Source: an uncultured Caulobacteraceae bacterium
GTDB lineage: Bacteria > Pseudomonadota > Alphaproteobacteria > Caulobacterales > Caulobacteraceae
Direction: 5' to 3'
Assembly: GCA_903929535.1 (NCBI GenBank)
Contig: CAIYVC010000130.1
Coordinates: 1-50,529, forward strand
DNA length: 50,529 nucleotides
Position numbers and translations under genes: made by a program. Shown here piece after piece: positions 17,533 through 19,195 of this stretch; positions within the stretch are counted from its first letter, which is position 1; each line of letters opens with the position of its first letter. The notes below the pieces were generated by a model. That model had not been told where the DNA came from. It did no database searches and saw only the letters and a list, made by a program, of their open reading frames with translations.

Positions 17533-17562
17533 AAGGCCCTCCTCCCCGGAGGGAGAAGGGCC
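17526..17562 (-). terminator. Rho-independent terminator of hsp20
   Basis: Read on the minus strand, GGCCCT pairs with AGGGCC (17562-17557 with 17540-17535). The inner part is also partly self-complementary, and the T-rich tail TTTTATTT follows at 17534-17527. It lies 24 bases after the hsp20 stop. On the plus strand no T-run follows, so it should mainly end the hsp20 transcript. Confidence 0.7.
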
Positions 17563-17586: not shown

Positions 17587-18045
17587 TTAGGCCGCTTTGC
17601 TGGAGCCTTTGATCTGCGGGGCGCCGGTGGCGATCTCGATACGGCGCGGCTTGAGCTGCTCGGGAAGCTGGCGCTCGAGCGAAATGGACAGCAGGCCGTC
17701 CGCAAGGTCGGCGCCCGTCACCACCACATGGTCGGCCAGCTGGAAGCGGCGCTCGAAATTGCGCTCGGCCAGGCCGTGATGAAGGAAGCGGCGCGGCTCG
17801 TCGTTCGCGGGCTTGGAGCCTTGGACGGTGAGGGTGTTTTCCTTGGCCTCGATGTTCAGTTCGGCGGGCTTGAAGCCGGCGACGGCGATCTCGATCCGGT
17901 AGGCGTTCTCGCCCACGGTTTCGATATTGTAGGGCGGATAGCCCGTCGGCCCTTCGCTGCGGGCGGCGGTTTCAAGCAGGGCGGCCAGACGGTCGAAGCC
18001 GACGGCGGAGCGGTACAGGGGCGAAAAATCCACGGTGGTGCGCAT
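17587..18045 (-). CDS. Small heat-shock protein, Hsp20 family
   Basis: An ATP-independent holdase that binds unfolding proteins in the cytoplasm. The 152-residue protein has a short N-terminal arm (VDFSPLYRSAVGFDRL, as in IbpA/HspA-type proteins of alphaproteobacteria). An alpha-crystallin domain at about 38-135 contains YPPYNIETVGENAYRIEIAVAGF, the FERRFQLADHV strand and the ADGLLSISL motif near the end. A short Lys/Ala tail follows. The start ATG at 18045 has an AGGAAG 6 bases upstream that is part of a predicted temperature-sensing hairpin. A sigma-32-type promoter lies about 105 bases upstream and a terminator follows the stop, so the gene is a single heat-shock unit. Confidence 0.95.
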   Translation of the reverse strand: MRTTVDFSPLYRSAVGFDRLAALLETAARSEGPTGYPPYNIETVGENAYRIEIAVAGFKPAELNIEAKENTLTVQGSKPANDEPRRFLHHGLAERNFERRFQLADHVVVTGADLADGLLSISLERQLPEQLKPRRIEIATGAPQIKGSSKAA

Positions 18046-18143
18046 AGAGAGCTTCCTTCTGCATCAGCAAGGTTGCGGTTCATGTGCAGGCTGGGCGACC
18101 CGGATCGGCGTCGCTGCCCGGAGGACCCGAATTCGGCGCCCTC
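18046..18143 (-). promoter_or_regulatory. 5' leader of hsp20 with ROSE-like RNA thermometer
   Basis: Just before the hsp20 start the RNA reads CUUGCU (plus-strand 18071-18066), an 8-base loop, then the Shine-Dalgarno AGGAAG (18057-18052). These pair as C-G, U-A, U-A, G-G, C-G, U-A. The G opposite G inside a UUGCU anti-Shine-Dalgarno is the signature of ROSE thermometers, which mask the ribosome site at low temperature in alphaproteobacterial small heat-shock genes. Farther 5', GCGAC pairs with GTCGC to form another stem, consistent with the multi-hairpin ROSE layout. The leader length of about 100 bases, counted from the predicted promoter, also fits. The folding was done by eye. Confidence 0.6.
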
Positions 18144-18149
18144 GAAGCC

Positions 18150-18178
18150 CATTTAGGAGCCCGTTTTGGCTCCGCAAG
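18150..18178 (-). promoter_or_regulatory. Sigma-32 (RpoH) promoter of hsp20
   Basis: On the minus strand CTTG (18178-18175) is followed after 17 bases by CCTAAATG (18157-18150). The alphaproteobacterial heat-shock consensus is CTTG-N17/18-CYTATNTNNG, so there is one mismatch in the -10 box. The spacing to the gene gives a leader of about 100 bases. A perfect 6-bp inverted repeat, GGAGCC/GGCTCC (18156-18161 and 18168-18173), lies within and at the edge of the spacer. Confidence 0.65.
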
Positions 18179-18283
18179 GGTAGATGCGGTTGAAAATATG
18201 CCGCTTTGACCCCGGCGCCACGCCGCGCTAAGCCGACAGCCGGGCGGGCTCCGGGGGCGGCTGCCGTCCTGGGGTTAAGGTCT

Positions 18284-19195
18284 ATGCAAGCCTGGTCCGC
18301 GCGCTTTTCAAGGCGGGGCATTTGCCTGAACGCGGCTGCAATGGGCGGCCTGCTGCTTGCCGCCTGCGGGCGTAAAAATCGGGCTGCGTCCGCCAACGAT
18401 CCGGCCGCGTTCGGCCCCGCGGGGCCATCGCCGGGGACCCTGGAATGGGCGGCGGCAGGTGACTGGCGCAGCGCCGACGACAAGTCTCACGACATATGGC
18501 GCCATCCCGTGCAGACCCTGCGGTTCTGGGGCCTGAAGCCCGGTATGACGGTGCTGGAGTTCTGGCCGGGGCTGGGCTGGTACAGCGACATCCTCGCCCC
18601 CTATCTGGCCCGCAGTGGTGGCCGGCTGATCGCCGCCCAGTTTCCCGCCGCCGCCAACGATCCCGCTCAGGCCCAGATTCTCAATGCCTACCGCAAGAAG
18701 ATGACCGCCCGCCCGGGCCTTTATGGCGTGCCGCAGATGGAGGACTTCGGCCCCGCCAGCGGCCCACTGGCTGCGTCGGACACCGTCGATCTGGTCCTGT
18801 TTCCCCGCAACCTGAACACCTTCATGGCCGCCGGCATCGCCGACAAGGCCTTCCACGACGCCTTCCGGGCGTTGAAACCCGGCGGGGTGCTGGGCATCGA
18901 GGCGCACCGGGGGACGCCCGGCGGCGTGCAGGACATCCTGGCCACGGACGGCTATGTGCAGGAGGACTATGTGAAGCAGCTAGCTGCCGAGGCCGGTTTC
19001 CGCTTTGACGGCTCCAGCGAGATCAACGCCAATCCCAAGGACAATCACAATCATCCCTACGGCGTCTGGACCCTGCCGCCGACACGGCGGTCGGCGCTGG
19101 TCGGCCAGCCGGACAATCCCAAGTTCGACCACGCCGCCTATGATGCGATTGGCGAAAGCGACCGGATGACCCTACGGTTCATTAAGCCGAAGTAG
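18284..19195 (+). CDS. Exported lipoprotein with class I SAM-methyltransferase domain
   Basis: The 303-residue protein starts at ATG 18284. Its N-terminus has twin arginines in SRRGICL (residues 9-15), a hydrophobic stretch and a lipobox LLAAC with Cys28, so it is predicted to be exported and lipidated. From about residue 55 a methyltransferase-like Rossmann fold follows: a helix with DIWRHPVQTLRFWG, then TVLEFWPGLGWYSDILAPYL (motif I), DTVDLVLFPRNLNTF (motif IV) and FRALKPGGVLGIEAHRG (motif VI). Motif I has Glu in place of the usual Asp and a bulky FWPGLGW loop. Related signal-bearing methyltransferase-like proteins are common in proteobacteria, but their substrates are unknown to me. The SCP2 gene follows after 9 bases. 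Confidence 0.8.
   Translation: MQAWSARFSRRGICLNAAAMGGLLLAACGRKNRAASANDPAAFGPAGPSPGTLEWAAAGDWRSADDKSHDIWRHPVQTLRFWGLKPGMTVLEFWPGLGWYSDILAPYLARSGGRLIAAQFPAAANDPAQAQILNAYRKKMTARPGLYGVPQMEDFGPASGPLAASDTVDLVLFPRNLNTFMAAGIADKAFHDAFRALKPGGVLGIEAHRGTPGGVQDILATDGYVQEDYVKQLAAEAGFRFDGSSEINANPKDNHNHPYGVWTLPPTRRSALVGQPDNPKFDHAAYDAIGESDRMTLRFIKPK

Follow-up and report, generated by a model that had tools for sequence, protein, structure and literature searches.

Among RNA thermometers, the ROSE and fourU types have been described (excerpt of PMC4166951). ROSE elements are defined by a U(U/C)GCU sequence set against the Shine-Dalgarno sequence before genes of small heat-shock proteins (sHsp), and more than 40 such candidates have been predicted in alpha- and gammaproteobacteria; carriers of the classical elements include Caulobacter crescentus (excerpt of PMC3669281). 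An element of the Rfam family RF00435 before an Hsp20 gene has been listed in Gluconobacter (excerpt of PMC5756330). As for structure, a bulged G is predicted for the class and is found in the crystal of the oppF element, and the earlier NMR structure from B. japonicum shows a pair between G83 and G94, G83-G94 (excerpt of PMC11342760). The excerpt of PMC9111926 holds nothing further on Caulobacter thermometers. A literature search with most subscription papers outside its scope, including the 2005 survey cited by PMC4166951, returned no title about ROSE elements in Caulobacteraceae and, within the same scope, no paper combining Phenylobacterium with an RNA thermometer.

The locus described here lies in a window of 50,529 nucleotides, the whole stretch of DNA that was analysed, from a draft genome of an uncultured Caulobacteraceae bacterium (3.02 Mb in 172 contigs, with two Hsp20 genes). 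From sequence evidence, the leader of the hsp20 gene in this window is assigned, with a probability of about 0.88, to the ROSE-type RNA thermometers as a Caulobacteraceae hsp20 member. The features of the locus, in window coordinates, are the following (MFE, minimum free energy fold).

17535-17562, minus strand: terminator-like stem and T run 3' of hsp20 (terminator search)
17587-18045, minus strand: hsp20 coding sequence, 152 aa (PF00011, E 1.5e-18)
18051-18076, minus strand: outer GC/GC pairs of hairpin III, past an AA/AA internal loop (MFE)
18054-18058, minus strand: Shine-Dalgarno-like AAGGA, 8 nt 5' of the AUG (read from the letters)
18055-18072, minus strand: hairpin III, predicted thermosensing core, with CCUU/AAGG, bulged G18068, CUG/CAG and the loop AUG
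18088-18119, minus strand: hairpin II, the middle stem as predicted from the window leader alone (MFE)
18121-18143, minus strand: hairpin I, at the 5' side of the leader and containing a bulged G (MFE and family conservation)
18151-18156, minus strand: -10-like box CTAAAT, 16 nt from the -35 box (pattern count)
18173-18178, minus strand: -35-like box CTTGCG of a heat-shock-type (sigma-32-like) promoter (pattern count)

The terminator search 3' of hsp20 gave two overlapping sites, shuffled sequences giving a mean of 1.0 (sd 1.0). Divergently, an ORF on the plus strand (window 18206-19195) resembles by eye a lipoprotein-signal methyltransferase; Pfam gave it no match at E<=0.001.

The sequence-only reading of this DNA had proposed that a ROSE-like thermometer masks the ribosome site of hsp20, and as a prediction this proposal is upheld by the UYGCU motif, two covarying hairpins, the promoter pattern, the sHsp gene and weak Rfam matches that are all to ROSE families. 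The letters that it cited are also correct: re-read on the minus strand, CUUGCU (18071-18066) and AGGAAG (18057-18052) flank the 8-base GAUGCAGA (18065-18058) before the Hsp20 gene, whose AUG is at 18045. Similarly to other members of the class, the leader places a UYGCU hairpin over the Shine-Dalgarno sequence of an sHsp gene, with imperfect pairing (the bulged G18068) and a hairpin number within the range of two to four; three hairpins are found in the MFE of the window leader, and two to five across the 85 family leaders folded. With the classical ROSE elements of rhizobia and C. crescentus (RF00435) the window shares the sHsp gene, a U(U/C)GCU that faces the Shine-Dalgarno sequence and the number of hairpins, three to four in those elements (excerpt of PMC3669281). 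Moreover, the printed structure line of RF00435 has an unpaired G inside UUGCU, as in the bulged pairing register considered below; the family differs in giving no match in the window and in its consensus strand, which is of the CCAUGUU type whereas CCUU/AAGG stands beside the window motif. The Pseudomonas ibpA and Providencia stuartii oppF elements likewise have a UYGCU hairpin over the ribosome site, with a bulged G in the oppF crystal, but the ibpA leaders contain two hairpins (excerpt of PMC3669281) where three are predicted here, and oppF is an ABC transporter gene (excerpt of PMC11342760) whereas the window gene encodes an Hsp20. A fourU thermometer was considered and rejected, such elements requiring four consecutive U opposite the Shine-Dalgarno sequence (excerpt of PMC4166951) and the opposite strand here reading CCUUGCUG. 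Class, gene and even a Caulobacter member are thus already in print, and the predicted window element is an ordinary member of the ROSE class.

The motif was followed through the family, an hsp20 match being present in 148 of the 149 Caulobacteraceae genomes searched. The leader of the best match was read in 142 of these 148 genomes, window included (30 loci from the first survey listing and 112 added loci; 6 genomes were left out), and UYGCU stands 18-45 nt 5' of the AUG in 141 of the 142. In 200 dinucleotide shuffles the motif fell within this interval in a mean of 10.2 and a maximum of 21 leaders of 142. The sole leader lacking it, L147 (genome G009), has the sequence CUGCUCCAAGGAGG, which places a tight hairpin without the motif over the ribosome site and is perhaps a natural variant. 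Among named loci (L033-L112, the best 80 of 579 confirmed candidates), the nearest belong to Caulobacteraceae, many of them Phenylobacterium and Caulobacter, and the host is assigned to this family accordingly; UYGCU is found in 23/24 of L033-L056, the exception being L056, and in 54/56 of L057-L112, which are mostly from other Alpha- and Gammaproteobacteria. A simple pattern, CTTGCTN{2,10}AGRAG, had 12 matches in the genome itself against 29 for its backward control, so that taken alone it is unspecific; in the flanks shown, its matches followed by an hsp20-type start are the window locus and one on contig C61.

A search with the Rfam ROSE models, which the sequence-only reading had named as a check, left the window below the curated cut-off, with a match at E<=10 to ROSE_3 (RF02523) of 19 bits against a gathering score of 43. 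This match lies upstream (18145-18078) and aligns hairpin I with the first hairpin of the model. At the gathering cut-off no Rfam model matched the window or 20 related loci. The short leaders of 20 relatives gave seven matches at E<=1, distributed over six leaders, and all were to ROSE, ROSE_2 or ROSE_3; in the best of them, to ROSE_3 in the relative's leader L157 (34 bits, E 3.2e-4), hairpin I and a sensing hairpin of the CU(G)CUGA/UCAG type align with the model and the motif G is unpaired in the structure line. Across 190 genomes of the class, searched with stricter filters, RF00435 reached E<=0.01 in 9 and RF02523 in 5, none of them above the cut-off; the gathering cut-offs of both families, reached in 0/190 genomes under these filters, are narrow. 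RF01832 scored above its cut-off in one genome of 14 used as controls but not in the source genome, where the sole match of RF00435 is on contig C61, at 32.4 bits against a cut-off of 45. These results indicate that nearly the whole of the sampled Caulobacteraceae keeps a ROSE-type element before hsp20 and that the Rfam models miss it at their cut-offs. With the conserved pairs identified, the family alignment could widen the Rfam ROSE models and guide the choice of mutants.

Upstream of the leader, the pattern CTTG[AC]N-N14-18-C(T/C)A(A/T), which we take to be that of sigma-32, is found in 85 of the 142 leaders and in none of the 142 reversed sequences, with a spacing of 16 in 79 of the 85 matches. 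In the window it reads CTTGCG, 16 nt, CTAAAT and ends 105 nt before the AUG, which is consistent with the leader of about 100 nt proposed earlier. The further stem proposed upstream also holds, since two are predicted by MFE and the first of them, hairpin I, is conserved in the family. Counted on the leaders with a promoter match (86/142 in this count, 80 distinct), hairpin I lies directly 3' of the predicted start and has 688 of 717 cells with standard pairs, against 485 of 678 for its best slid version; its compensatory changes switch pairs among G-C, A-U and C-G. The stability of the whole window leader is ordinary for its composition (z -0.53) and lends no support. In the window MFE the start codon of hsp20 is itself paired, 18084-18081 with 18046-18043 through an upstream CAUG, which would bury the AUG along with the ribosome site.

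The sequence-only reading had paired CUUGCU with AGGAAG, leaving G18068 opposite G18055 as in the G83-G94 pair seen in B. japonicum (excerpt of PMC11342760). In the window a second register is available, shifted by three nucleotides, in which CCUU (18072-18069) pairs with AAGG (18058-18055) and CUG (18067-18065) with CAG (18061-18059), and G18068 is bulged. The two were compared on an alignment of 130 distinct leaders over their last 52 nt, built without the use of structure (12 of the 142 were dropped as identical over these 52 nt); the counts rest on this longer alignment and on no covariance model because an alignment of the short hairpin misplaced the 3' strand. The six family-wide pairs of the bulged register are standard in 758 of 779 cells and all intact in 114 of 130 leaders, while sliding the same pairs by 1-3 columns leaves 52-74 % of cells standard. 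Next to the bulge the pair is U-A in 69 leaders, U-G in 42 and C-G in 19 (one of the 19 being the misaligned L147), and the closing pair C-G in 108 and U-A in 12. The motif G is present in all 130 rows. For the register with G opposite G, the five ordinary pairs hold in 463 of 650 cells, and all five strictly in 2 of 130 leaders. A G does stand opposite the motif G in 108 leaders, and with this G-G contact required but one pair, mostly U opposite U as in the NMR structure, left free to hold any letters, this register is available in 87, window included, of which 86, again with the window, can form both registers. The 19 UCGCU-type rows, one of them the misaligned L147, separate the two: the bulged register is complete, with its six pairs, in 10 of them, and the other is formed by none even with the mismatch.

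Energies point in the same direction. At 37 C the window core is at -4.8 kcal/mol with the G bulged and at -3.2 kcal/mol, that is 1.6 weaker, with G opposite G, with pair probabilities of 0.96 and 0.0; in the window model the latter register is populated at <=0.003 from 15 to 60 C. Energies alone do not exclude it, because thermodynamic models treat G-G poorly. In addition, for the 26-nt window hairpin folded alone at 42 C a third structure with the G paired is as stable as the bulged form (-4.74 against -4.69), and when the last 52 nt are folded the MFE leaves the conserved G unpaired in only 89 of 129 leaders (L147 left out). Covariation is 0.195 in the bulged register (shuffle mean 0.138) and 0.062 in the other (0.043); neither value was reached in any of 500 shuffles, so this control, exceeded by both, picks neither register. 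Kinship among sequences can lift covariation above shuffles without any structure, and for this reason the register was chosen from the numbers of standard cells and of fully intact leaders, together with the UCGCU clade. Taken on these counts and on the modelled energies, G18068 is more likely bulged than opposite G, and the pairing proposed earlier was probably off by three bases; a thermometer with G opposite G as its main pairing, which the window letters permit, appears unlikely. The mutation of the G-G pair to a pair with C, suggested as a lock, would not discriminate the registers, since the G-to-C change in silico stabilises the one with G opposite G (-7.5 kcal/mol; wild type -5.8, 37 C). 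Deletion of G18068 in silico stabilises the bulged register (-9.6 against the same -5.8 kcal/mol).

With a ROSE-type thermometer in the bulged register, the following sequence of events can be proposed. Heat would raise transcription from the heat-shock-type promoter; at growth temperature the Shine-Dalgarno strand AG-AAGG would be paired to CCUU and CU in the last hairpin of the leader, in a stem that the invariant G, best placed as a bulge, would weaken; and on warming within the physiological range hairpin III would melt, allowing the ribosome to bind and the chaperone to be made. The motif, the predicted hairpins I and III, the promoter pattern and the gene are established at the level of letters and alignment; the leader hairpin very probably opens with heat. 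The modelled melting is shallow, the mean unpaired probability of the ribosome site being 0.28 at 20 C, 0.35 at 42 C and 0.48 at 60 C, which would also suit a conserved hairpin that does not sense temperature and only reduces translation, or has a role in mRNA stability or for a small RNA; such a role is quite improbable, given that motif, gene and position match those of heat-responsive ROSE elements in other bacteria (excerpts of PMC3669281 and PMC11342760).

The conserved G costs the core about 3.3 kcal/mol on average (-3.3 with it and -6.7 without it; 129 leaders, L147 left out), as would be expected if the stem is kept weak. With A in its place the core is at -3.1, the same cost, and weakness alone therefore fails to explain why the G is invariant. 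An explanation would be offered if the hairpin slid between registers, from a bulged G in the cold to a G opposite G when warmer, and its opening would then pass through a defined intermediate; the 86 of 130 leaders able to form both registers speak for this idea, and the 0/19 UCGCU-type rows together with the model population of <=0.003 against it, leaving it only a slim chance. Conservation through an overlapping or upstream reading frame, for which there are an AUG at 18083-18081 and a 98-codon ORF crossing the region, is rejected with near certainty, since just 4 of 142 leaders have an AUG 13-14 nt 5' of the motif, the frame being absent in the relatives, and the paired positions change together.

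Other leaders with the motif were observed in the genome and in the family. The other Hsp20 gene of the genome (contig C125, L002:1860-2080, minus strand) has UCGCU about 30 nt upstream of what may be a GTG start. A further hsp20 type is represented by eight leaders (L230-L237) from five family genomes, which all contain ACUUGCUC...GAGGAGAUGG and form a second ROSE type in Caulobacteraceae. On contig C61 (5717-6304; L113:1440-2027) an orphan ROSE leader is fused to another gene. It can be aligned with the paralogous hsp20 leaders L230-L237 from the promoter through to the first codons, after which the ORF encodes an unrelated protein that looks secreted; this fused form was found in 1 of 149 family genomes. 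In this case another gene may have acquired the thermometer, or an hsp20 copy may be decaying.
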